A stretch of 32,350 nucleotides of DNA, taken from IMG/VR virus record IMGVR_UViG_3300010354_000329, positions 1-32,350 of that record. One strand, given 5' to 3'. The notes under the pieces were generated by a model that saw only the letters and a program-made list of their open reading frames with translations, did no database searches and was not told the DNA's origin. Made by a program: the position numbers and the translations under genes. The DNA is from a virus. Of this stretch, positions 1 to 27,244 are shown in pieces; within the stretch, counting starts at the first letter, position 1; each line of letters begins with the position of its first letter.

Positions 1-122
1 AAGGCAAGGCACACCTCGGCAATCGTCGGGGAGTAGCCGTGGTCGGCGATGTACCGAGACAGCCATCGCAGGATGTCCTGCTGGCGTTCGGTGAGCGGTT
101 GGCGTTCGGTGGTGGTGGTCAT
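1..122 (-). CDS. LexA-type winged-helix DNA-binding protein, N-terminus (cut by window edge)
   Basis: Forty codons are visible from an ATG at 122 running off the left edge. The peptide contains LTERQQDILRWL followed by HGYSPTIAEV, which is the pattern of the LexA N-terminal winged helix (LTxRQxxIL ... GYxPTxxEI). The family binds DNA as an SOS or prophage repressor. Whether the C-terminal self-cleaving peptidase domain is present cannot be seen. The ATG overlaps the stop of the replication-initiator-like gene as ATGA, so the two are translationally coupled. A LexA-like gene at the end of a phage early operon could be a full repressor or an HTH-only regulator. Family call is fairly sure, role is inference. 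Confidence 0.75.
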   Translation of the reverse strand, partial: MTTTTERQPLTERQQDILRWLSRYIADHGYSPTIAEVCLA

Positions 123-961
123 GTCGTGGCTTCCTCCTTGAGCCGTTTCGCTTCCGCCAGTTTCCTCGTCAGTGCAAACGCTTCGGCGTCCCTCCCGGTC
201 CACGCCCGTGGCGGCGGCTTGTCCTCGGGCCTGCGGCCCGGCTCCCGAACCGACCCGCCCTTGTCCTGGCACCTCGCCAGCCACCGGACCAGGAACGCCC
301 GCCAGTTGCGGCGTCCCGCCCGTGTCGGGTTCGCCTTCAGCCAGGACGTCGCCTTGGCGAGCTCCTGGTCGAGCACGGCACCGGGGTAGGCCGTAGCCCA
401 TTCCTGCCGGTCGGCCGCCGTAATGCCCTCCCAGCCCGTTTCCGAAGTCCACGAGACGGCGGACTTCGCCCGCGAGCGGGACGGCTTTGCCGGAACGCTC
501 GTGGGAACCGGCGCAGCCGGTTGTATTTCTTCTGTTATGTCCTGTCCTGTTATGTCCTGTGGTAGACGCACCTGTAGACGCACCTGCGCCTCTTGCGCGT
601 CTACAGCAGCGCCTCCGGTGCGCCTCCACTTGTCCTGACGCCTGTTTTTCAGGGCTCGCCGCTTTGCGGCACCGCCGAAACGCTCCTCCCATTTGGGAAT
701 CTGGGCAGTTTCGCCGTCGAAGACGATCCAGCCGACAGCGGCAACTGCCTCCCAGAATGGGGACTCGCCACCGCAGATCCGGCCCAAGCGTGACGGCGTC
801 GAGCGGAACCGGCCGTCGGCGGTGTTCAGTTGGACCCAGCCCCAGAGCTTGAGCAGCCGGAACACGATCACCTCCACCGGCTCGCCGGTCAGGTCAACGA
901 GCTCCTGGACCTCAGGCTTGGTGTCGAGCGATACGTCTACGGGGAACCATTCAGCGGCCAT
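119..961 (-). CDS. Phage replication initiator-like protein (helix-turn-helix N-terminus)
   Basis: A 280-residue protein starting at ATG 961, preceded by AAGGACGC eight bases upstream; the reading frame is open further upstream but that part has no coding character. The N-terminal ~100 residues begin MAAEWFPVDVSLDTKPEV and include RLLKLWGWVQ, FWEAVAAVGW and GGAAKRRALKNRR, the layout of winged-helix phage replisome-organiser and primosome proteins. Residues ~115-200 are a low-complexity linker with short internal repeats (VRLQVRL, QDITGQDIT) produced by DNA repeats. The C-terminal ~80 residues (WATAYPG ... WLKANPTRAGRRNWRAFLVRW) resemble the DnaT/replication-protein tail. Together with RecT and a LexA-like gene this is a typical phage replication module. 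The exact subfamily is not identified. Confidence 0.65.
   Translation of the reverse strand: MAAEWFPVDVSLDTKPEVQELVDLTGEPVEVIVFRLLKLWGWVQLNTADGRFRSTPSRLGRICGGESPFWEAVAAVGWIVFDGETAQIPKWEERFGGAAKRRALKNRRQDKWRRTGGAAVDAQEAQVRLQVRLPQDITGQDITEEIQPAAPVPTSVPAKPSRSRAKSAVSWTSETGWEGITAADRQEWATAYPGAVLDQELAKATSWLKANPTRAGRRNWRAFLVRWLARCQDKGGSVREPGRRPEDKPPPRAWTGRDAEAFALTRKLAEAKRLKEEATT
532..604. repeat. Iteron-like direct repeats, candidate replication origin
   Basis: Two tandem repeat pairs lie back to back inside the linker of the replication-initiator-like gene. CTGTTATGTCCTGT occurs at 532-545 and 547-560 (15-base period). GTAGACGCACCT occurs at 562-573 and immediately again at 574-585. An inverted copy of its core, GCGTCTAC, is at 597-604. 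Iterons inside the initiator gene are the arrangement of lambda O and its origin. The repeats are seen directly; the origin role is inferred. Confidence 0.5.
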
Positions 962-1044
962 CTGTGGCGTCCTTCTATTCGTAGATTTTCCATTCCTTGC
1001 GACGCCGCAGTTTTTCGTCCACAAACTGCCCGCTTCCTCGCCAA

Positions 1045-1728
1045 TCAAACGTTTTCCTGGCCGCCGCAACAGCCATTGCCGACTTTGTTGCGAGTCGGCC
1101 TGCATTTGGAGATGTAATGCAACTCAGCAAAATGAATTTCAGATTCCGGCATTTTGATGACGGCCAACTTGCAGTCGGCAAGTTCTCGGCGGCTTTTGGA
1201 AACTCGCCGCGTAACGTCCATTGACTTTCCGACGTATCGCACGGCACCGGTCGACTCGCAAACGGCTATGTAGATTCCCGCGAACGACTCCATTGCCCTG
1301 ACTTCATCAATGGAAAAAACCGCTGGAGGGACTGGTGGGTACGCGGAGTCATCTGCGCAAAAAGTGGCGATGCAGCGTTCGGCGTTTTGTGCAGCCTGTG
1401 CGCGGCGGGCTTCCATGCGCACGCGATTCCACCTCTTGAAAGACACGTCTGGACTCCATTTCATGCGGCGCGGCCTCTTCGCGTCGGCATGAAGTGAAGT
1501 AACGCTCAGGCACGCACGTGTCTTGCCTGTCCTTTTGTGTTTTCCGATCCACGCCTCCGTTTGAATGTGGAAGCCAACCGGCAGACGGAAAACCTTCGCG
1601 TCCACAGGATCTGCCTCGGAATCCAGGTCGTCATAAAGCCAAGCTTCGTATGTTTCGTCTTCACATCCGCTGGGATAACTGAGGACCGAAATGGTTGAGT
1701 CAGGCCAGAACGCAATAAAAGCGGTCAT
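1045..1728 (-). CDS. GIY-YIG domain protein, putative endonuclease
   Basis: A 227-residue protein. The start chosen is ATG 1728, which overlaps the stop of the upstream wHTH gene as ATGA; a start five codons earlier is possible. Residues ~148-216 carry a GIY-YIG nuclease domain: GIYIAV at 151, VRYVGKS at 163-169, an Arg at ~174-175, a Glu at 202 and an Asn at 214 after KCRPTRNKV, in the right order for the family's catalytic Tyr/Arg/Glu. The N-terminal ~145 residues are unlike anything I recognise and include a basic stretch (ADAKRPRRMKW). Base composition looks lower in G+C than its neighbours (32 of 60 in 1141-1200). It could be a homing-type or a resolving/repair nuclease of the phage. Domain call is good, role is open. 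Confidence 0.75.
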   Translation of the reverse strand: MTAFIAFWPDSTISVLSYPSGCEDETYEAWLYDDLDSEADPVDAKVFRLPVGFHIQTEAWIGKHKRTGKTRACLSVTSLHADAKRPRRMKWSPDVSFKRWNRVRMEARRAQAAQNAERCIATFCADDSAYPPVPPAVFSIDEVRAMESFAGIYIAVCESTGAVRYVGKSMDVTRRVSKSRRELADCKLAVIKMPESEIHFAELHYISKCRPTRNKVGNGCCGGQENV

Positions 1729-2030
1729 GCCGTTGCCCTCCACACCCGCTCCGGCCGCCCGCTCGCGCTCGGCCTGGTCGCCCCTGTCGTCTCGACTCTC
1801 CCGGCGCGTGCGAGCCCGTGCATCCTTCGGGCCACCTGTTGCTCGGACAACCCGCAGCGGCCGGCGATCTCGTCCTTGGTGCCCGGCCCCGCCGCCAGCG
1901 CCTCGAGGATCCGCCGCTCGTGCTCGCCCTTGAACTCGCGGGCCGCCTGGCCTGCGACCTTGCTGGTGACCGGGTCGGTGCGGCGAAAGAGCGGGAGGTG
2001 GTCGACGCTCGTGCTGTAGTAGTCGCTCAT
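1725..2030 (-). CDS. Winged-helix DNA-binding protein
   Basis: A 101-residue protein from ATG 2030. The core reads FRRTDPVTSKVAGQAA, then RRILEALAAGPGTKDEI, then CGLSEQQVARRMHGLARAG and a wing ending ASGRPERVW. This is the pattern of a small phage winged-helix protein (helix-turn-helix with a QVxRRxxxL recognition helix). Such genes often lie in phage early regions beside recombination and replication genes; the precise function is not known. Its stop overlaps the GIY-YIG start (ATGA). It may be a transcriptional regulator or a replication accessory factor. Confidence 0.7.
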   Translation of the reverse strand: MSDYYSTSVDHLPLFRRTDPVTSKVAGQAAREFKGEHERRILEALAAGPGTKDEIAGRCGLSEQQVARRMHGLARAGRVETTGATRPSASGRPERVWRATA

Positions 2031-2064
2031 CCTTTGAGCCCTCGTCGTCCGTGTATTTGCCGGG

Positions 2065-2220
2065 TTACGCCCGGCGCGACCGCTTCGCCCGCGGAGGCCG
2101 GGCTGCGGCTGCGGTGGATTTCGCCGTCGCCCGCTTCGGCACCGCTCCCGTCTTCCGGGTTTCCCCCTGCGGCTGGGGTGGTTTCTTTCTCATCTGCTCC
2201 CAGGAGTCGTGCCATGCCAT
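2065..2220 (-). CDS. Small basic protein, unknown function
   Basis: A 51-residue open frame whose ATG (2220) overlaps the stop of the upstream gene as TGATG, the coupling used throughout this region. It starts MAWHDSWEQMRKKPP and continues as an Arg/Lys/Ala/Pro-rich basic tail. The Trp-rich head looks like a real protein, while the tail could bind nucleic acid. A second frame through the same DNA (from ATG 2215 to 2027) also overlaps the next gene at its stop, so which frame is used is uncertain; I prefer this one because of the coupled start and the non-random N-terminus. Confidence 0.5.
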   Translation of the reverse strand: MAWHDSWEQMRKKPPQPQGETRKTGAVPKRATAKSTAAAARPPRAKRSRRA

Positions 2221-2462
2221 CAGTCGCTCGCCTCCGGTGGTGGTGTCGGGTCGAGTTGCTGCAGGCGCACCCGGGGCTCGTACTTGTTTTGCAGGGCCAC
2301 AAGCTGCTCGATCAGCCGTGACTCCCGCTGGTTGGCCCTCTGGCTCGCGCCGCCCAGGTCGGCGACCCAGGCAGCCATCCGAGGCCGATGTAGCCGCTCG
2401 AGCTCACGGACGATGTCGGCCGTGCTGTTGAACGTGTCGTCGATGGTCTCGGGCTGGATCAC
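2220..2462 (-). CDS. Small helical protein, unknown function
   Basis: An 80-residue protein starting at GTG 2462, overlapping the RecT stop (GTGA). It is predicted helical from the sequence, with heptad-like stretches (ADIVRELERLHRPRM, ESRLIEQLVALQNKYEPR), and ends in a Pro-rich tail. I do not recognise the family. Its tight coupling to RecT suggests an accessory role in recombination or replication, but nothing in the sequence shows this directly. Confidence 0.6.
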   Translation of the reverse strand: MIQPETIDDTFNSTADIVRELERLHRPRMAAWVADLGGASQRANQRESRLIEQLVALQNKYEPRVRLQQLDPTPPPEASD

Positions 2463-3322
2463 GTGGTGGCCTCCGTGCCGGCGGCCTCGTGCTCAAACTC
2501 CTGCCCCTTGTCCTCTGGCTCGGCCAGCAGGATCTCCGCCTTGTGGTGAATGAGGTCCACCAACTCGCTCTTCTGCTCCTGGCTGAACACGCCCTCGTTC
2601 GTTCGCTTGTCCACGAGCGTCCGCAGGGCGTCGAGCATGTCGAGATTCGTCGCCCTGCTCACGGCGAGACGGGCCCTGCCCATCGGGTCGTCGATGGGCG
2701 ACTGCGGCGCGACGAACGAGGCCGGGTGCGAGACGTTGATGCCGGCTGTGGCTTGCGTCTGCACGGGCGGCGGTGCCGGCTCGGCCGTCGGGTAGTCCTG
2801 GGCCTCTTCGGCCGTGATAAGGCCACGCAGTGCGTCTGCGAAGGCGTTACGAAGGGCGAAGCCCCTGGCCCGCAGTGCCAGCATCCTGGCAGGATATTGC
2901 GTCCACGGCCCCGCCTTGCCGGCCAGGCCCGCCCGCTTGGCGTCAGCCATCGAGAACCTGCTGACCGTCGGGGCCGGGTAGCCCCGCCGCTTGGCCTCGC
3001 AGACCGCCACCAGGGCGTCACCTTCGCCCTCGGTGTATTCGCGGACGTACTCGCAGACGGGGCTCGACTGCACCAGTGCCAGGGCCGCGTCACCCCAGAT
3101 CGTCGGCCTGCCGTTGATGACGGCAATGCTCTGGAGCGATTGCATCGGCGACAGGCCGACTTCGCTCCCGTGCTGGATCGCCAGCAGGCACGACTCGGGC
3201 TTGTTCCTGAAATCCTTCGGGGCGAACTCGCTAGCCGCCACCATCTTCGAGAACCGGAAGGCGTCATCGAACGTCTGAAGCGCCAGCCCGCCGGCCCGTT
3301 GTGTGCTGATTTCCGTGCTCAT
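2459..3322 (-). CDS. recT: RecT-family single-strand annealing protein
   Basis: A 287-residue protein, close to the usual length of the family (~270-300). Diagnostic RecT segments are visible: KPESCLLAIQHGSEVGLSPM (~residues 42-61), SLQSIAVINGRPTIWGDAAL (~63-82) and PWTQYPARMLALRARGFALR followed by NAFADALRGL. The ~100 C-terminal residues are a Pro-rich linker and an acidic helical tail. RecT proteins anneal complementary single strands in phage recombination and normally pair with an exonuclease; no exonuclease gene is visible here, so it may lie left of the window or be absent. ATG 3322 is preceded by AGAAAGGACGC, a strong ribosome binding site seven bases away. Confidence 0.85.
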   Translation of the reverse strand: MSTEISTQRAGGLALQTFDDAFRFSKMVAASEFAPKDFRNKPESCLLAIQHGSEVGLSPMQSLQSIAVINGRPTIWGDAALALVQSSPVCEYVREYTEGEGDALVAVCEAKRRGYPAPTVSRFSMADAKRAGLAGKAGPWTQYPARMLALRARGFALRNAFADALRGLITAEEAQDYPTAEPAPPPVQTQATAGINVSHPASFVAPQSPIDDPMGRARLAVSRATNLDMLDALRTLVDKRTNEGVFSQEQKSELVDLIHHKAEILLAEPEDKGQEFEHEAAGTEATT

Positions 3323-3347
3323 CGTCGCGTCCTTTCTGCGTGTTGGT

Positions 3348-3815
3348 TCAGGAGTGGAATCCGTTGCCGTTGATCGTCTGCATCAGCTCTTGAGGCGGCG
3401 TCGGCGGATTCGTGGCGATGTTCTCAACGGCACTGGTGAGCCGCTCGAGCACGCGGTAGATCTCGTCCAGAGTCGTGTCGATTGACGCCAGCGATTTGCA
3501 GACGGCATCAATGCGGTCATCGCCAACCGCGAAGCTTTGGTCAGACATTGAGTCAGTGGATTTTTCGGCCTCGCGGTCGTCCCACTGCTGCTCCAACAGC
3601 CTCATGTCCTCGGGGTGAATGAAGTACTTGCCGCCAGCGCACGTCTTCGTCGCGCCGCCATAGCAAACGCATCGCACTTTGCCGGCGTCCACCGCACGCA
3701 CGACATAGTTGCTGAATGCACGCCCGCGGGCGTTGTCCTTGACGTTCTGCACCCAGCCAGCCGGAACAGCAGCCTCCTCGTACACCCTGCTCAGTTTGTA
3801 TTTCTTGCTTTGCAT
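3348..3815 (-). CDS. Unknown early protein with C-terminal coiled-coil-like region
   Basis: A 155-residue protein starting at ATG 3815, with AAAGGACGC nine bases upstream. Residues 1-75 are compact and rich in Val, Tyr and Cys (RCVCYGG ... KTCAGGKYFIHPEDM), with a WVQNVKDNARGRAFSNYVV segment that could be a small nucleic-acid-binding or phage-antirepressor-type fold. Residues ~100-140 (DDRIDAVCKSLASIDTTLDEI ... VLERLTSAVENI, read in two parts) look like an amphipathic helix that could oligomerise. I do not recognise the family. It lies between the RecT gene and small early genes and carries its own ribosome binding site. Confidence 0.65.
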   Translation of the reverse strand: MQSKKYKLSRVYEEAAVPAGWVQNVKDNARGRAFSNYVVRAVDAGKVRCVCYGGATKTCAGGKYFIHPEDMRLLEQQWDDREAEKSTDSMSDQSFAVGDDRIDAVCKSLASIDTTLDEIYRVLERLTSAVENIATNPPTPPQELMQTINGNGFHS

Positions 3816-3922
3816 TAACCCGCGTCCTTTCGTGATTCGCGAATTTCGAATGTCCTTTGGAAAATCCCGCTCTGCGTCCTGCTCGGCGGGTGGTTCGTGC
3901 GTCCCTGCTGCCCCGGTTCCAC
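3815..3922 (-). CDS. Possible 35-residue peptide gene
   Basis: A short frame opening with GTG 3922, four to five bases after AAGGAG, and closing with TAA that overlaps the next ATG as TAATG. The peptide begins MEPGQQGRTNHPPS and ends FEIRESRKDAG. The ribosome binding site and the coupled stop argue for translation; the peptide itself shows no domain and could simply be a leader that couples translation into the downstream gene. Low confidence. Confidence 0.3.
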   Translation of the reverse strand: MEPGQQGRTNHPPSRTQSGIFQRTFEIRESRKDAG

Positions 3923-3969
3923 CGGGCTCCTTCCGCCGTCTAGCTCCGCTGGCCGGCGGTCCTTTGCCG

Positions 3970-4191
3970 TCAGTGCGTGATGTCCTTCGGGTCCACGACG
4001 AGCCAGGCACCGCTGACCTCGACGACCATGCGTCCGGGCTCGATCTGCTGCACGTAGCCAGACCAGTGGCGGCCACCGGAGTAGCCCGAGACGAAGTCGC
4101 CGACGGCCGGCAGGGCCCTCAGGCTGATGGTCTGCTCGTGCAGTCCGGCGATCGCGGCCAGGTATTCGCAATGGTGGGGTTCGGTAGTCAT
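3970..4191 (-). CDS. Small SH3-like beta protein, unknown function
   Basis: A 73-residue protein from ATG 4191, preceded by GAGGAAAGGACGCC nine bases upstream. After a short helical N-terminus (HHCEYLAAIAGLHEQ) it has the alternating pattern of a small SH3/KOW-like barrel: VGDFVSGYSGGRHWSGYVQQ, then GRMVVEVSGAWLVVDPKDI. Such mini-barrels in phages bind nucleic acid or protein partners. It is the first gene after promoter 4360-4387 with its ~160-base leader, so it is likely among the operator-controlled early genes. Function is not known. Confidence 0.65.
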   Translation of the reverse strand: MTTEPHHCEYLAAIAGLHEQTISLRALPAVGDFVSGYSGGRHWSGYVQQIEPGRMVVEVSGAWLVVDPKDITH

Positions 4192-4330
4192 GTCTCGGCG
4201 TCCTTTCCTCTGAGGTGGGGCGTGAATGTATCCGGCGTTTTCTAGTGGTCAAGCGTTCACGTTCGGGAATTTTTATCTGCATGAATCACGGGCAAAACAG
4301 ACGTTCTGGAGCTGGAAAGTTTGTTCATGT

Positions 4331-4343
4331 GTTCCGCAATCGG
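4331..4343 (+). promoter_or_regulatory. Fourth copy of the operator-like element, in the leader
   Basis: GTTCCGCAATCGG on the plus strand differs by two bases from GTTCCGATATCGG found in the 4887-4914 promoter. It lies about 10-22 bases downstream of the transcription start expected from the 4360-4387 promoter, in opposite orientation to the other copies. A second operator in the leader is a common way to strengthen repression. No gene on the plus strand follows it. Confidence 0.4.
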
Positions 4344-4359
4344 CACCATTGCGACAAGC

Positions 4360-4387
4360 GTTGTACCCAAATCGGAACCAGTGTCAA
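4360..4387 (-). promoter_or_regulatory. Sigma70-like promoter with embedded operator (third of the set)
   Basis: On the minus strand a consensus TTGACA (4387-4382) is followed after exactly 16 bases by TACAAC (4365-4360). The spacer CTGGTTCCGATTTGGG carries the same element seen in the other two early promoters. It would drive the 3970-4191 gene and the genes after it. The interval 4192-4359 holds the ~160-base leader, in which I see no convincing gene. Confidence 0.6.
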
Positions 4388-4527
4388 CCGAAAAGCCTCC
4401 AGGGCAGGGCAGCGAGCAGCTCGAGCAGGTCGTGGATTGCCCGAGCCGCTGGGGAATCGGTGCCCAGTTCCTGGCCGATACGGACCAAAACCAAGGCGGG
4501 CAGCAGGTTGTCGAGATGGCGTTTCAT
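4384..4527 (-). CDS. 47-residue protein, unknown function
   Basis: A short gene from ATG 4527 with a strong GGAGG five bases upstream. The product (begins MKRHLDNLLPALVLVRIGQE, ends ALPWRLFG) looks like two amphipathic helices. Its stop TGA lies inside the -35 box of the next promoter (4382-4387), so gene end and promoter overlap by a few bases. I do not recognise the family; small helical proteins at this place in phages are often regulators or host-interaction factors, but nothing here proves it. Confidence 0.6.
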   Translation of the reverse strand: MKRHLDNLLPALVLVRIGQELGTDSPAARAIHDLLELLAALPWRLFG

Positions 4528-4583
4528 TTGGCCCTCCGTGGCCGTTGCCCGCCGGCGCGATTGCCGGCGGGCGTAGTGATTGG

Positions 4584-4835
4584 TCAGGCCCCGACGTAGT
4601 GGTAGTAGCCGCGGCTGCTGACAACGTACCGCGTCTCGCCGGCCTCGTTCGTGTGCTGGCTCATCTCGTGGCCGCCGTAATAGAAATCCATGGCTGCAGC
4701 GACTTCGATCGCCAGCGACTCGTCGAGGAACCACTGGGCGGGCACCGGATACTTCCAGCCGCGGCTATCTTCGATGGTCTTGAGAAAAGCCTTGATGATC
4801 TCGCGGGGCTCGGTGATGGGGAAGCTGGCGTTCAT
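4584..4835 (-). CDS. Small early protein, unknown function
   Basis: An 83-residue protein. ATG 4835 is chosen because AAGGAG lies nine bases upstream; an in-frame ATG at 4880, exactly where the 4887-4914 promoter would begin transcription, would add 15 residues and would be leaderless. The sequence PREIIKAFLKTIEDSRGWKY, then PAQWFLDESLAIEVAAAMDF and a Tyr-rich C-terminus (SSRGYYHYVGA) suggest a small alpha/beta protein. No family recognised. It is the first gene under the second operator-bearing promoter, so probably early and repressed in the lysogen. Confidence 0.6.
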   Translation of the reverse strand: MNASFPITEPREIIKAFLKTIEDSRGWKYPVPAQWFLDESLAIEVAAAMDFYYGGHEMSQHTNEAGETRYVVSSRGYYHYVGA

Positions 4836-4886
4836 GGTTTTGTCTCCTTGCTGGCGTCCGCGAGTCTCATTCGCTCGCATGCCCCA

Positions 4887-4914
4887 ATGATACCGATATC
4901 GGAACCATTGGCAA
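4887..4914 (-). promoter_or_regulatory. Sigma70-like promoter with embedded palindromic operator (second of the set)
   Basis: Minus-strand TTGCCA (4914-4909), 16-base spacer ATGGTTCCGATATCGG, then TATCAT (4892-4887). The spacer contains the perfect palindrome CCGATATCGG. Six bases after the -10 comes ATG 4880, so the transcript would start at or next to that ATG. It serves the 4584-4835 gene. Confidence 0.65.
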
Positions 4915-4969
4915 GGGGTATCCAGAAAAAATCTTTTTGGCCGTTTTCGGCCGGGAAATGGGGGGTGGG

Positions 4970-5209
4970 TCAGCCGGCGGCGAACTTCCCGCCCTTGGGC
5001 TTGTGGCGGCCTGTGCCCCTAGAGACGGCCGACTTCAGCCGACGAACCTCGTCGGCCGGGATCACGTAGGAGCCGCCCACGACTTCGCTGGCGACCTTTC
5101 CTTCTTGGGCCAGGCGGCGCATGTACCGCATCGAGCAGCCGTAGAGCTTGGCTGCGTCATGGCAGGACAGCATCTTCCGGCCGAAGTCGTCTTTCATCAG
5201 CGCGATCAT
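4970..5209 (-). CDS. Excisionase-like helix-turn-helix protein (MerR/HTH_17 type)
   Basis: A 79-residue protein, typical length for phage excisionases and HTH_17 proteins. The core SCHDAAKLYGCSMRYMRRL, then GKVASEVVGGSYVIPADEV is the winged helix-turn-helix pattern (xxEAAxxxGxSxxxVxRLxxxGxL ... R-x-wxIPxxxL). A basic tail follows (GTGRHKPKGGKF). ATG 5209 begins seven bases after the -10 box of the promoter at 5217-5244, so the mRNA is probably leaderless; ATG 5197 is an alternative, with no ribosome binding site. It is divergent from the integrase, the classical place for xis or a small regulator. It could direct excision or repress the operators next to it. Confidence 0.7.
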   Translation of the reverse strand: MIALMKDDFGRKMLSCHDAAKLYGCSMRYMRRLAQEGKVASEVVGGSYVIPADEVRRLKSAVSRGTGRHKPKGGKFAAG

Positions 5210-5216
5210 GCCCCCA

Positions 5217-5244
5217 ATAGTACCGATTGGGGAACGGCGGTCAA
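5217..5244 (-). promoter_or_regulatory. Sigma70-like promoter with embedded operator (first of the set)
   Basis: Minus-strand TTGACC (5244-5239), 16-base spacer GCCGTTCCCCAATCGG, TACTAT (5222-5217). A 7-base inverted repeat CCCCAAT/ATTGGGG (5212-5218 and 5226-5232) straddles the -10. It reads into the HTH gene starting at 5209 and lies in the 112-base gap to the divergent integrase, so a bound protein could affect both. Confidence 0.65.
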
Positions 5245-5321
5245 ACCCGCAGAAAGCCGGGTAGTTTGCCGGCCACCGGCCGCCGCCCGTACCATACTGA
5301 ACAGAACATCCAGCGGAGGGC

Positions 5322-6338
5322 ATGGTGACGAAACATTTGTTCACCATGCTAGACTTCGCCGAAAACGCGGAGGGCAGAGCCATGACGGTGAGGGAATTTC
5401 TGGTCGAGCGGTATTCGGTGCTGCACAACCTCAAGCCGAAGACGGTAGTCCTCTTCGGTCACTCTATCGACCGGCTCCGGGACTTTCTCGGGCGCGAGCC
5501 GGAACTGACGGATTTTGACGATTTGACGGTGTCCAAGTACCTCCGGTGGCGGGCGGTCACGCCGCACAAGGGGCGGATCTGCTCGCCGGCCAGTGTCGCC
5601 AAAGACAAGGCCCACCTCGTCTCGTTGTGGAACGCCGCCGCCAAACGCCGCCTGGTCGAGCAGTTCCCGGATCTGCCCCGCAACCTGGTCCGGGTGCCGC
5701 ACCACGCCCCCGAGGCCTACACCGTCGATGAGATCAGCCGCATGGTGGTCGTGGCCCGCCGCCGGTCGGGGCGAGTCGGGCCCGTGGCTGCCGCGTGGCT
5801 TTGGCCGACGCTCTTGATGAGCGCCTGGTACAGCGGCGAGCGTATCGGCAGCCTGCTCCAACTCCGCTGGTCGCAGGTCGACACCCAGCGGCGGACGCTG
5901 ACGTTCCTGTCCGAGCACCGCAAGGGCCTCGGACGCACGATTACACGCCACATCACGCCCCAGCTGGCCGAATGGCTGGAGAAAGGCCGCAGGGCCCCTG
6001 ACGAGCTCGTATGGCCCTGGATCGACCACAGGAACGAGGGCTCGATCTATCCCCGCCTGCGGTACATCTGCAGGTCGGCGGGCGTCACGCCCAAGGGGTT
6101 CCATTCGATCCGCAAGGCGGCCGGCAGCTACATGAAGGCGGCCGGCGGGGACGCGACCGACTTCCTGACGCATCGGGACTCCAAGACGACCAGGGACCAC
6201 TACCTGGACCCCAAGATCGTCGGCGAGGCCTCGGCCTTGGACTTCCTCCCGCCCCTCGACCTCGACGGGCCGGCGACAAATCCTCGGCAGTTGCCGGCAA
6301 GTACCGAGGATTCGCCAGGAGACCGGCCGGCGGCTTGA
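5322..6338 (+). CDS. int: Tyrosine recombinase, phage integrase
   Basis: A 338-residue site-specific recombinase that would integrate the phage at an attachment site. After an N-terminal SAM-like DNA-binding part (MTVREFLVERYS ... LKPKTVVLFGHSIDRLRDFL) the catalytic domain shows Arg174 in SGERIGSLLQLRW, Lys201 in SEHRKG, His261-x-x-Arg264 in GFHSIRKAAGSY, His284 in LTHRD and the nucleophile Tyr294 in TTRDHYLDP, so all active-site residues are present. Two starts have good ribosome binding sites: ATG 5322 (GGAGGG immediately before, rather close) and ATG 5382 (GGAGGG eight bases before); the shorter form is 318 residues and is quite possible. It is one of only two genes I accept on the plus strand, divergent from the excisionase-like gene. 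Confidence 0.9.
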   Translation: MVTKHLFTMLDFAENAEGRAMTVREFLVERYSVLHNLKPKTVVLFGHSIDRLRDFLGREPELTDFDDLTVSKYLRWRAVTPHKGRICSPASVAKDKAHLVSLWNAAAKRRLVEQFPDLPRNLVRVPHHAPEAYTVDEISRMVVVARRRSGRVGPVAAAWLWPTLLMSAWYSGERIGSLLQLRWSQVDTQRRTLTFLSEHRKGLGRTITRHITPQLAEWLEKGRRAPDELVWPWIDHRNEGSIYPRLRYICRSAGVTPKGFHSIRKAAGSYMKAAGGDATDFLTHRDSKTTRDHYLDPKIVGEASALDFLPPLDLDGPATNPRQLPASTEDSPGDRPAA

Positions 6339-6401
6339 CGTATGTCAATTGCCCCGGGCACCAGCCGGGAGTAGCGTTGTGTCCACCGAAGGGAGGGCAT
6401 C

Positions 6402-6857
6402 ATGGGCCTACTCTCGTTTTTCAGCCCGCGATCATGGGCTCGATCCAGAGCCGAACAAGTCACGTGGGATGGCGGCTGGCCGCAAAATTCCCCGCGGCGA
6501 ACGCTCAGGCAATTCTGGATCAACGATCCAATCGCCATTAAGCCGACCAAGCTACCGCTTGGGACGCTGGCGAAACGCGTCACGCCGTGCGTCGACGTCG
6601 ACTTCCATTTCGATCACGGCCAAATCGTCGTTGACAGGGCTCGCGTGTGTACGTCGGTGTCGCCGAATTGTGCGGCCATTCAGGGCGAAGCGTTTGACGC
6701 GGTCGCCAGTTTCTTTGGCCGCGGTGTTCTGGAGTCTGTCCTCCAGCTGCAGGCAGACACAAAGAAGTCGGATTTGCGCAGCTGCGTTTTCAGGGTGATG
6801 GCCCAGGAACGTGAGGCCGCAGGCCTTGACGTCCCGGGACGGGGGCGGCGCGGGTAA
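6402..6857 (+). CDS. Unknown protein downstream of the integrase
   Basis: A 151-residue protein with GGAGG five bases before ATG 6402 and 63 bases after the integrase stop, in the same direction. It begins MGLLSFFSPRSW, has a Trp/Pro-rich region (TWDGGWPQNSPRR), a middle with CVDVDFHFDHGQIVVD and a helical C-terminus (GRGVLESVLQLQADTKK). I do not recognise it. The G+C looks lower than the late genes. Genes placed between integrase and late operon end are often lysogenic-conversion (moron) genes, which is a possibility only. Its last codons run into the stem-loop at 6844-6880. Confidence 0.65.
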   Translation: MGLLSFFSPRSWARSRAEQVTWDGGWPQNSPRRTLRQFWINDPIAIKPTKLPLGTLAKRVTPCVDVDFHFDHGQIVVDRARVCTSVSPNCAAIQGEAFDAVASFFGRGVLESVLQLQADTKKSDLRSCVFRVMAQEREAAGLDVPGRGRRG

Positions 6858-6880
6858 AGGAAGCGAAACCCCGCGCCGCC
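6844..6880. terminator. Stem-loop between convergent genes, probable bidirectional terminator
   Basis: A perfect 11-base inverted repeat GGCGGCGCGGG (6844-6854) and CCCGCGCCGCC (6870-6880) encloses a 15-base loop. It sits between the plus-strand gene ending at 6857 and the end of the late operon at 6894, where a terminator acting in both directions is expected. There is no T tract, so it may not be a classical intrinsic terminator. Confidence 0.5.
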
Positions 6881-6893
6881 ACGCCCGCCCGGA

Positions 6894-7268
6894 TCAGTGT
6901 TTCTTGTCGGCGTCGATGAAGATGGAGAACCCCAGCCGCGCGCGGGCTTCCATCACGTCGACCTTCTCACGGCTGCCCGGCAATGCCGCCGTCGGCTTCG
7001 GTGAATCCATCACGGCCTGCACCTCGCGGACGACCTGGTCGAACTCGTCGCGGGCCAAGAGCAGGGCGTCGTGCAAGATCGTCCGGTCGTAGTTCGCCGC
7101 TCGCTGGTTGTAGGCATGGTTTCCTATCAGCGAGTCACCACCGACTTCGCGGCGGGCGCTGTAGATGAGCAACGTCGACCGCAGGTGAGCCTGGACGCGT
7201 TGGACCCTGGTGAGCCACTTCCGCAGCTTTGGGTCTAGGTCGTCAGGCCACCTAACTCGCTGTGCCAA
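6894..7268 (-). CDS. Unknown phage protein, last gene of the late operon
   Basis: A 124-residue protein starting with TTG 7268, with GGAG about seven bases upstream and no ATG or GTG start nearby. It is helical and charged: WPDDLDPKLRKWLTRVQRV, QAHLRSTLLIYSARREVGG, a central ANYDRTILHDALLLARDEFD segment and a C-terminal EARARLGFSIFIDADKKH. No known motif. It follows the small membrane protein genes by a 48-base gap and ends 14 bases before the stem-loop. The rare TTG start and position suggest low expression. Confidence 0.55.
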   Translation of the reverse strand: MAQRVRWPDDLDPKLRKWLTRVQRVQAHLRSTLLIYSARREVGGDSLIGNHAYNQRAANYDRTILHDALLLARDEFDQVVREVQAVMDSPKPTAALPGSREKVDVMEARARLGFSIFIDADKKH

Positions 7269-25013: not shown

Positions 25014-25447
25014 CAGCGGAATGTCCTATACGTGACCGAGATCACGGCCCGCCAGGCATTGCGGTCCTGGAGGGCGTCGTCCGGGTTGATCTCAATGGCG
25101 ATGCCCTGCGGGCTCGTCGCCGGGAATTCCTCCTCGCCCCACGAGTGGGCCAGGATCACGTCGACCACTTCCTCGGCGAGCTCGAGCATCTCGTCGGCGT
25201 CCTCCGTGGCCGGCGTGTGCCGCCCGACGAAGACGTTCAGCGTGTAGTCGTGCTGGTGCTTGTCGCGGCTGACCCGCTCAATGGTGTCGCTGCCCGGCGT
25301 GACGATGATCACCGGGTCGCTCATGTCCTCGATGTCGAGGCTGGGCCAATTCTGCCGCGACACCGCCGGCTGTTCGCTGACTGACTCCCACTCCTGGGCA
25401 GCCAGGCCAGCAGCCAGGGCATCCGCCAAATCCTTGAGCAGGCTCAC
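25013..25447 (-). CDS. Tail completion/terminator-type protein
   Basis: A 144-residue protein. GTG 25447 is chosen because it overlaps the glycosyltransferase stop as GTGA; the frame before it is shadow. It has helix LLKDLADALAAGLAAQEWES, then strands DPVIIVTPGSDTIERVSRDK and HQHDYTLNVFVGRHTPATED, a second helix ADEMLELAEEVVDVILAHSW and a final strand NAWRAVISVTYRTFR. This alpha-beta layout matches siphovirus tail completion proteins (gpU/gp17-like fold), and the gene order (before gp10-like and tube genes) supports it. Family by fold pattern, not by a strict motif. Confidence 0.6.
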   Translation of the reverse strand: MSLLKDLADALAAGLAAQEWESVSEQPAVSRQNWPSLDIEDMSDPVIIVTPGSDTIERVSRDKHQHDYTLNVFVGRHTPATEDADEMLELAEEVVDVILAHSWGEEEFPATSPQGIAIEINPDDALQDRNAWRAVISVTYRTFR

Positions 25448-26496
25448 GCTGCAGCCTCCAGAATGCGTTCCATGGCCTCGACGTTGCCAGTTAGCCGCCG
25501 GTCCGCCGGGCATCGTGCCACAGCCTCACGGGCGAACCGCAGGGCCTCAGGCCGCTGTCCGAGGTTCCACGCCGCCACAGCGGCCAGGTCGTAGGCTTTC
25601 GTCTGGGCATCGGGATCCGTGGCATGGGTGCTCTCGCCATCGGCATTGAGTGCCTGCACCGCGAAGGCATGGCACTCCCGCCATTCCTGACGCTGGTAGT
25701 GCCGGAACGCCAGCTGCTGCCATGCGTCGGGCTCCTGCGGGGCTTCCTTGGCGGCACAGTGCAGATGCCGTTCGTCGCCCGTCAGCCGGAAGAGGGCCCG
25801 GTAGGCGTAGGACCGCTCGGTCCCGGTGCCGCCCGGCATCGTCAGGTAGTGGGCGAACGTGGCTGCCGCTGCGGCGTCGCCGGCCCATTCCATCTCCCGG
25901 GCGAGATACCACCAGGACCGGGCATCGTGCGGGGCCTCCCGCACGGCCACGCGGAGCAACGAGAGGTCCGTCTTGTGTTTCTTGCCGGCGTCACGGTGAT
26001 GGTGAATCTCCAGGCCCTCGACGAACTTCTGCCGCTTTTCGCCGGTCCAGCAGAGCAAGCCCTCGTGCGTCGGAGACGACCAGCGAAAGCCCTGGCGGGC
26101 GTGGATCCGGTCGGCGTAGAAGACCAGCCCCGGCGACCCGTCGGGCTTCCAGGACCACACGTAGCGATACCGGAGGCAGTTGGCCTCCCCGTCCCACGCC
26201 TGCTCGAGGGCGGCCCGCCAGCCGGGCTGGAGCCGCTCGTCAAGGTCGAGCCGGATGCAGACGTCGACGTCCGCCGGCAGGTGGTAGAGCGAGAGGTTGT
26301 GGGCGTCGTCCCAGCGCCACGGCACCACCGCGCCGGTGCAGACCGTGACGCCCTGCTCGGCGAGGGCCTCGACGGTGCCGTCGGTCGAACCGGTGTCGGT
26401 GACGACCCGCACGTCGGCGTCCGCACACGAGGCGGCCCAATCGGCCACGTGCTTGCGTTCGTTCTTCGCCAGGGCGTAGACGCCGATCTTAAGCAT
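25444..26496 (-). CDS. GT2 glycosyltransferase with C-terminal TPR-like helices
   Basis: A 350-residue protein. Residues 1-190 are a GT-A domain: IGVYALAKNERKHVADWAAS, VVTDTGSTDGTVEALAEQGV, WRWDDAHNLSLYHLPADVD with the DxD-type motif in CIRLDLDERLQPG, and HHHRDAGKKHKTDLSLLRVA. Residues ~195-345 are helical pairs (ARSWWYLAREMEWAGDAAAA, DAWQQLAFRHYQRQEWRECH, AYDLAAVAAWNLGQRPEALR) that look like TPR repeats. TPR-fused GT2 enzymes glycosylate proteins or surface polymers. Its start overlaps the next GT2 gene by eight bases. Confidence 0.85.
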   Translation of the reverse strand: MLKIGVYALAKNERKHVADWAASCADADVRVVTDTGSTDGTVEALAEQGVTVCTGAVVPWRWDDAHNLSLYHLPADVDVCIRLDLDERLQPGWRAALEQAWDGEANCLRYRYVWSWKPDGSPGLVFYADRIHARQGFRWSSPTHEGLLCWTGEKRQKFVEGLEIHHHRDAGKKHKTDLSLLRVAVREAPHDARSWWYLAREMEWAGDAAAAATFAHYLTMPGGTGTERSYAYRALFRLTGDERHLHCAAKEAPQEPDAWQQLAFRHYQRQEWRECHAFAVQALNADGESTHATDPDAQTKAYDLAAVAAWNLGQRPEALRFAREAVARCPADRRLTGNVEAMERILEAAA

Positions 26497-27244
26497 GGCA
26501 CTCGTGCCCCTCGTGCTTGACGTTGTTCACCTCATAGAACACCAGCGGTTCGTCGACTCTGAGCAACCGGGTGACCGTGCTGGCTCTGCGGTACAGATCC
26601 CAGTCGCTGGCCGACAGCGACCGCATGTGCCGCCCGACGTCATCCGGCACCCAGCGTTGCCACCCGCCCACGGTGGCAATGAGGTGCCGCGAGACCAGCA
26701 AGGCCGACACGGCCATCGGGTTGAACCGTGGCACGCACTCGGTGACGTCGGTCACGCCAGCGGTGGCCGGGACGCCATGCGTCCCGTAGTAGTCGTGGTG
26801 GACGCCCAGGCATTCGCCGCCCTCGGTGCGGTTGATCACGCTGGCATTCATGAGCAGACAGCCGGGGTTCGCCCGCAAGGCCTCAATCTGCCGTGCTATG
26901 CGGTGCGGCATCCACTCGTCGTCGTCGTGGCAGTAGGCGAACCAGTCGCCACGGGCGAGGCACTGGGCCACGTTCATCGTGTCCCGCGACGCCGTGGAAA
27001 TCTCGCGGCCGGCATCATCGCGGAATGGCTTTTGGGTGTGCGTCCCCCGCGACAGCCGCACGACGTTGACCGGCACGGCAGCACCGGCGTATCGGTCATG
27101 TAGGCCAGCGTACTCGGGCTCGGGTGACGCATTGTCGACGACGATCACCTCGTCCACCGGATGGGTCTGCCGCAGGATGGCGTCAATCGCCCGGCAGCAT
27201 TTGTCGAACCGGCGATAGGTCGTCACGAGTGCGGAAATCTTCAT
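26489..27244 (-). CDS. GT2-family glycosyltransferase
   Basis: A 251-residue protein with the GT2 N-terminus MKISALVTTYRRFDKCCRAI, then VIVVDNASPEPEY, a nucleotide-sugar DDD motif in GDWFAYCHDDDEWMPHRIAR, and ALLVSRHLIATVGGWQRW and SASDWDLYRRASTVTRLL near the end, where the acceptor-side Asp usually lies. Cytoplasmic transferase using a nucleotide sugar. Coupled to the YibB-like gene by ATGA, so part of the same cassette. Donor and acceptor are unknown. Confidence 0.85.
   Translation of the reverse strand: MKISALVTTYRRFDKCCRAIDAILRQTHPVDEVIVVDNASPEPEYAGLHDRYAGAAVPVNVVRLSRGTHTQKPFRDDAGREISTASRDTMNVAQCLARGDWFAYCHDDDEWMPHRIARQIEALRANPGCLLMNASVINRTEGGECLGVHHDYYGTHGVPATAGVTDVTECVPRFNPMAVSALLVSRHLIATVGGWQRWVPDDVGRHMRSLSASDWDLYRRASTVTRLLRVDEPLVFYEVNNVKHEGHECHA

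Follow-up and report, generated by a model that had tools for sequence, protein, structure and literature searches.

Co-varying palindromic operators and a small HTH_17 protein form a putative exchangeable immunity cassette in a group of temperate phages

Results

Gene content of the early region

The DNA analysed here, referred to as the window, is the entire 32,350-base IMG/VR record IMGVR_UViG_3300010354_000329. A tyrosine integrase, a RecT-like protein, a tape measure protein and a phage exonuclease were recognised among its genes. The source of the record is a temperate tailed phage, the integrase being the mark of a temperate life cycle; no lysogen in a cultured host was seen in the collections searched. 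The integrase gene (5322–6338, plus strand, with a conserved start that is probably at 5382) diverges from a minus-strand gene (4970–5209) for a 79-aa HTH_17 or excisionase-like protein, which is the predicted repressor. Beyond this gene, all on the minus strand, are a small gene behind promoter B (4584–4835; 83 aa when counted from an ATG preceded by the Shine-Dalgarno sequence AAGGAG, or 98 aa if read in frame from a 5'-terminal ATG at 4880) and a 47-aa gene, p4384 (4384–4527), which is the final gene ahead of promoter C and is found in most relatives, independent of operator class. The early operon includes a gene for a RecT-like single-strand annealing protein (2459–3322) and, at 1–121, an incomplete LexA-like winged-helix gene that runs off the record, both on the minus strand. 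A further early-operon gene (1045–1743, minus strand) has a weak GIY-YIG match (E 0.057) and is a possible homing endonuclease, matched in only two of the fetched relatives, L043 and L044 (28%). Far from this region, at 25444–27244 on the minus strand, are two neighbouring glycosyltransferase-like genes, the first of which strongly matches a family of phage beta-1,4-glycosyltransferases. An Rfam scan of positions 1–7000 gave zero family matches.

Palindromic operators overlap the predicted early promoters

All promoters described here are predictions from sequence. Promoter A (TTGACC-16-TACTAT, 5217–5244) lies upstream of the HTH gene, and promoters B (TTGCCA-16-TATCAT, 4887–4914) and C (TTGACA-16-TACAAC, 4360–4387) follow it on the same minus strand; these three hexamer pairs, each with a 16-base spacer, were found exactly where the original prediction had placed them. 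The pattern GTTCCNNNNTSGG occurs in four exact copies in the whole window, all within 4331–5235, as against 0.83 expected, and none of 100 shuffles gave four. The assertion that the window holds no further full copy was thus borne out. When one mismatch was allowed there was no enrichment in the window (21 found, 20.5 expected), so that the evidence consists of the exact copies together with the relatives described below, the window by itself being only suggestive. With the shuffles and the conservation in relatives taken together, a chance origin of the copies was rejected.

Each copy belongs to a 16-bp palindrome with the symmetric consensus GTTCCGATATCGGAAC, derived from a profile of the relatives. 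The core had been described as a near palindrome, and it is indeed palindromic, although over 16 bp and not 13. It had also been placed wholly within the spacer; in fact the right arm also takes in the initial three bases of the -10 hexamer. On the minus strand, operator A (GTTCCCCAATCGGTAC, 5220–5235) scores 20.6 bits against the profile, operator B (GTTCCGATATCGGTAT, 4890–4905) 23.2 bits and operator C1 (GTTCCGATTTGGGTAC, 4363–4378) 23.6 bits. The fourth copy, which the original prediction saw as reversed, is present as operator C2 (GTGCCGATTGCGGAAC, 4331–4346, minus strand; 18.1 bits), 32 bp downstream of C1. It is a conserved tandem operator, but the notion of a reverse orientation has no meaning for a palindromic site. 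A scan of the window with the profile gave these four sites at 18.1–23.6 bits; a weak fifth operator-like site (ATTCCCGAACGTGAAC, 4255–4270, minus strand) reached 12.5 bits and the next-best in the whole record 9.1. The weak site stands beside the -35 hexamer of promoter D (TTGACC-16-TACATT, 4225–4252, minus strand), whose spacer has no operator and which lies upstream of the gene at 3970–4191. The idea that the operator is the cause of the 16-bp spacing was rejected, since promoter D has the same spacing without one.

Promoters of the D type (TTGAC-16-TACATT with an operator-free spacer) are present upstream of the 3970–4191 gene in many relatives. In L028/L052 and in L025/L035 an operator abuts the -35 hexamer of promoter D, and in L028/L052 a perfect operator occupies the position equivalent to the weak site at 4255–4270.

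The HTH protein

Family TIGR01764 was assigned to 24 of 32 members of the HTH family and HTH_17 to 25 of 32, and the nearest annotated families are excisionases; an excisionase-type HTH domain is therefore what the family carries, with the protein of the window scoring just below the curated cut-offs of both HTH_17 and the excisionase-domain family TIGR01764. The 79-aa protein is modelled as a winged helix (mean pLDDT 78). This predicted fold is weakly like those of BldC, RacA, GlnR and Xis, with zero matches at E<=0.001 in the structure comparison. INPHARED contained no relative of the protein. The domains of the lambda regulators (HTH_3, and in CI also S24) were not found in it.

The ATG of the HTH gene is 7 nt past the -10 hexamer of promoter A, at the predicted transcription start, so its mRNA should be leaderless. 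Because operator A lies in this promoter, the gene is predicted to be autoregulated. Several features count against reading the protein as the prophage repressor: it is without an obvious dimerisation or inducer domain, its annotation and weak fold matches point to excisionases and their like, and its gene runs in the early direction, as cro does, and not opposite, as cI does.

Relatives share the layout of the sites

Close relatives of the HTH protein are encoded by six contigs, and relatives of the RecT-like protein by at least 80. In every relative that has the region, an HTH_17-like gene lies behind the divergent integrase. The HTH genes were sorted by best seed match into eight classes, with the borders of c2, c3 and c6 being rough; some of the relatives may share sampling sites, and the records may be fragments. 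In class c1, to which the window belongs, the sites lie at equivalent places in the relatives.

Outside class c3 the A promoter has the near-consensus form TTGAC-16-TAnnAT. Its spacer is 16 bp in 30 of 38 distinct relatives, 17 bp in seven and 18 bp in one. With class c3 left out, 32 of the 38 distinct A promoters have the start codon 6–7 nt beyond the -10 hexamer and five more have it 8 or 9 nt beyond, partly because a GTG three bases further on was taken as the start. These numbers bear on the possibility that the HTH protein is a MerR-type activator, which would sit on the spacer and bring a poor promoter into alignment; regulators of the MerR family include GlnR, TnrA and, by fold, BldC. 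The fold places HTH_17 in the MerR-like winged-helix group, and the sites of MerR proteins likewise lie between the -35 and -10 hexamers. MerR promoters have spacers of 19–20 bp, whereas the hexamers here are good and the spacers of the A promoters are 16–18 bp, with 16 bp also in the operator-free promoter D. Further, C2 is downstream of the transcription start, the protein has no effector or coiled-coil domain, and repression would be expected from the placement of its sites. We regard activation of this kind as very improbable.

Classes c1, c4, c5 and c8 share a four-site plan of A, B, C1 and C2, with C2 missing in a few members; the spacer palindromes are CTAACGCCGGCGTTAG in c4, GTAACGCTAGCGTTAC in c5 and TTACCGGTACCGGTAA in c8. 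Operator A is located 24–27 bp before the HTH start, measured from the start used, operator B about +290 to +319 from that start, and C1 further on. The distance from C1 to C2 is 28–38 bp in 16 distinct loci, with a mode of 30. The same plan is visible by eye in classes c2, c6 and c7. Clear B and C copies such as AACTACCGATAGACTACAGT were read by eye in the mixed class c2, and class c3 has B sites of a different type, CGCAGATAACTGCG; in c2, c3 and c6 the operators have weaker symmetry and were inspected by eye only. As inverted repeats, the operator arms matched at 4.7–5.9 of 8 positions, as against 2.0 in shuffles. In 19 of 19 distinct loci operator A scored below operator B.

Comparison of the half-sites (GTTCCG, TTACCG, GTAACG, CTAACG, CTACCG and GTTGCG) reveals that position 2 is always T and positions 5–6 always CG, with the class set mainly by positions 1, 3 and 4. 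At least seven interchangeable specificity classes are present in this phage group. In one locus, L033 (5039–5095), a class-c1 HTH protein of only 48% identity is accompanied by standard c1 operators at A and B, but the sequence at each of the two C sites is GTTCCG...CGCAAC; the specificity may be drifting here.

The operators vary with the HTH protein

The original prediction offered two candidates for the regulator, the HTH protein and the LexA-type protein at the left edge of the record. Mantel tests were carried out over 37 loci from which near-duplicates had been removed. Similarity in operator A followed HTH identity with r = 0.45 (none of 1,000 permutations), and the values for the other genes were 0.08 for integrase, 0.02 for RecT, 0.12 for p3970 and -0.12 for the LexA-like protein. 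Because operator A adjoins the HTH gene, the test was repeated with the B and C operators, located by their promoter hexamers only. Here r was 0.55 for B (0/1000) and 0.41 for C (1/1000), with -0.25 to 0.11 for integrase, p4384, p3970, RecT and the LexA-like protein. These operators are 300–1200 bp from the HTH gene, and close linkage alone is therefore no explanation.

The presence of the sites tells the same tale. The c1 operator pattern was found in all seven class-c1 records and in none of 11 others, every copy being beside an HTH gene. An exact B-type promoter occurs in 15 contigs of the collection, with a class-c1 HTH gene upstream in all of them. In a blind scan of 2.9 million IMG/VR viral contigs with B-type operators of four classes, 82 loci were recovered; an HTH gene of the same class was upstream in 72, one of another class in 0, and none in 10. 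Among these 10, the surroundings of L178, L195, L204 and L214 were read and contain neither a promoter nor an HTH gene, so that these four are apparently chance matches to unrelated phages. L160, L168 and L170 have fewer than 300 bases upstream, and the other three are L205, L210 and L216. Regulator specificity and operators thus vary together among related phages, and this co-variation identifies the protein encoded at 4970–5209, the first of the two candidates, as the putative reader of the operator.

The other candidate fared differently. If the LexA-like protein, or LexA of the host, read the sites, the early genes would be under SOS control. The protein does have a LexA DNA-binding domain, and some LexA boxes contain GTTC. 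In the relatives, though, it consists of a lone winged helix, about 75–87 aa long, without a peptidase domain, and so lacks the self-cleaving S24 domain of LexA. Its Mantel correlation with the operators, already negative at A, is -0.16 at B and 0.02 at C. Moreover, the protein is 100% identical in L028 (c1) and L025 (c4) and 97% identical in L051 (c5) and L050 (c2), pairs with different operators, and a host regulator cannot account for different operators in sibling phages. The LexA-like protein was ruled out as the reader, and we give SOS control in either form almost no credence. The LexA-like gene is late in the early operon and is common to phages of several operator classes.

The HTH gene and its operators are exchanged together

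Several phages that are otherwise similar differ in this segment. L035 (c4) and L052 (c1) are about 93% identical in DNA over 1,275 bp and match nearly base for base to RecT. The match starts on the final base of the last operator in L052; ahead of this junction the two differ in operators and HTH genes. In L011, L012 and L014 the integrases are 100% and the RecT proteins 98% alike, with three HTH/operator classes among them. The window and L007 have 90% DNA identity in integrase and 88% in RecT but do not share the HTH/operator segment. Regulator and operators are replaced together in these phages, and the HTH gene and its operators are exchanged as a cassette among related phages. Such exchanges match the behaviour of immunity cassettes.

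Discussion

A proposed one-protein switch

We consider it highly probable that the sites serve together as the operators of an immunity module of the phage, in which an HTH_17 repressor and its operators are swapped as a cassette. Co-variation strongly supports the proposal, made originally, that one regulator directly controls the three early promoters; that the control is repression is suggested by the position of the sites. The HTH protein would bind the 16-bp palindrome, probably as a dimer, as the symmetry of the site suggests. Since the operator extends over the spacer and into the upstream edge of the -10 hexamer, protein bound at A, B or C1 would cover both, and occlusion is suggested, with RNA polymerase being kept off the promoter. 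At C, the second operator, three helical turns downstream, may allow cooperative binding; the spacing of C1 and C2 noted above suggests that this would take place on one face of the DNA. Through operator A the protein would restrain its own production, with B, which serves the small early genes, and C, which serves the recombination and replication operon, remaining shut. The lower scores of operator A are what would be expected if the protein keeps its own gene partly expressed while B and C are shut. One protein could in this way silence the prophage and confer immunity to like phages, and replacement of the HTH gene with all its operators would give rise to heteroimmune phages.

The likeness to lambdoid immunity, including the imm434 exchange of lambda, is that the repressor gene and operators travel together and, as predicted here, set the immunity type. 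Both have tandem operators, and the putative repressor gene is expected to regulate itself and to lack a leader, as cI does when it starts from PRM. The differences are considerable. Here there is one small HTH_17 protein in place of CI plus Cro, its gene is co-directional with the early operon, and the operators are scattered over about 1 kb, one in the spacer of each promoter with two at C. In addition, HTH_3 was absent from 19 of 20 records, with one marginal match, and Peptidase_S24 from all 20, HTH_17 being present in 19; these records may be fragments, and an undescribed repressor family could be missed in them. In the Cluster A mycobacteriophages (L5 and Bxb1) many related phages have diverging repressor/operator pairs and are heteroimmune (PMC6550527), as the present phages are predicted to be. 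Those phages have as many as 30 stoperators, mostly off promoters and in one orientation (PMC6550527), whereas three or four palindromes are found here, at early promoters only.

A different assignment of roles deserves to be weighed. The HTH protein may be a lytic repressor of the Cro/Apl type that is also the excisionase; it would then dampen the early promoters in lytic growth and aid excision, with an unrecognised repressor keeping lysogeny. Like 186 Apl, P2 Cox and Xis (PMC7498355), it is a small winged-helix protein, annotated as TIGR01764 and HTH_17, encoded beside an integrase and expected to bind early promoters, and Apl of phage 186 does both jobs (PMC7498355). The families that it matches best are those of excisionases or directionality factors, and its gene adjoins the integrase, runs in the early direction and is predicted to be autoregulated. 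Apl and Xis sites are arrays of direct repeats 10–11 bp apart (PMC7498355), about one helical turn; no such repeats were found here, the sites being single 16-bp inverted repeats. Nor did the 20 records, the one marginal HTH_3 match aside, contain a CI-type or S24 repressor, and it is immunity regions that typically exchange a repressor and its operators as one cassette. We consider this assignment unlikely, and return to the HTH protein as the proposed immunity repressor.

On balance we favour a broader reading, namely that lysogeny in this group may be governed by a one-protein switch, the protein being an excisionase-type HTH protein of about 80–115 aa, and that the group's at least seven mutually exclusive protein/operator pairs constitute a naturally occurring code for the specificity of a minimal winged-helix repressor. 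In the literature covered (open-licence papers only), no phage repressor of such a type is described. Regulator, site and target promoters were assigned here from sequence alone, for phages of which the collections searched contain no cultured member. The results point to exchange of immunity cassettes among uncultured phages, in which an excisionase-type protein takes the place that one would expect a CI-like repressor to fill. Because the natural protein/operator pairs sit in a constant promoter frame, their specificity is directly testable, and they supply small repressor/promoter pairs that are predicted not to cross-react.

The 5' end of the B transcript and the host

The 5' end of the predicted B transcript can form a stem-loop (UGCGAG-cgaaugaga-CUCGCG, 4859–4879, minus strand). 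A hairpin is present at this place in many relatives of any operator class, with a stem of 5–8 bp and a 9-nt loop that ends in UGAGA (CRNNUGAGA). The stems, such as GCGAG/CUCGC, GUCAGG/CCUGAC and GGUGAG/CUCACC, show compensatory changes. Among 15 distinct sequences, in hairpins that were picked by pairing, two-sided changes occur at five of six pairs and all cells pair. In many relatives the hairpin is followed by GGGAGACGAAACG-AUG. No Rfam family matched the stem-loop, which may act in the control of translation.

The predicted B mRNA begins with AUG, at 4880 on the minus strand, and in this it resembles the E. coli 5'-uAUG mRNAs described in PMC4965119. In the window, L018 and L088 this AUG is in frame with a Shine-Dalgarno-led gene about 15 codons on; elsewhere it opens a short reading frame or is absent.

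As pointers to the host, RecT relatives with more than 60% identity were found in only three short contigs of MAGs, assigned to Burkholderiaceae (L087), Phycisphaerales (L088) and Planctomycetia (L089). The Phycisphaerales contig also carries the integrase, a c6-like HTH gene and the same four-site layout, which makes a planctomycete host likely.
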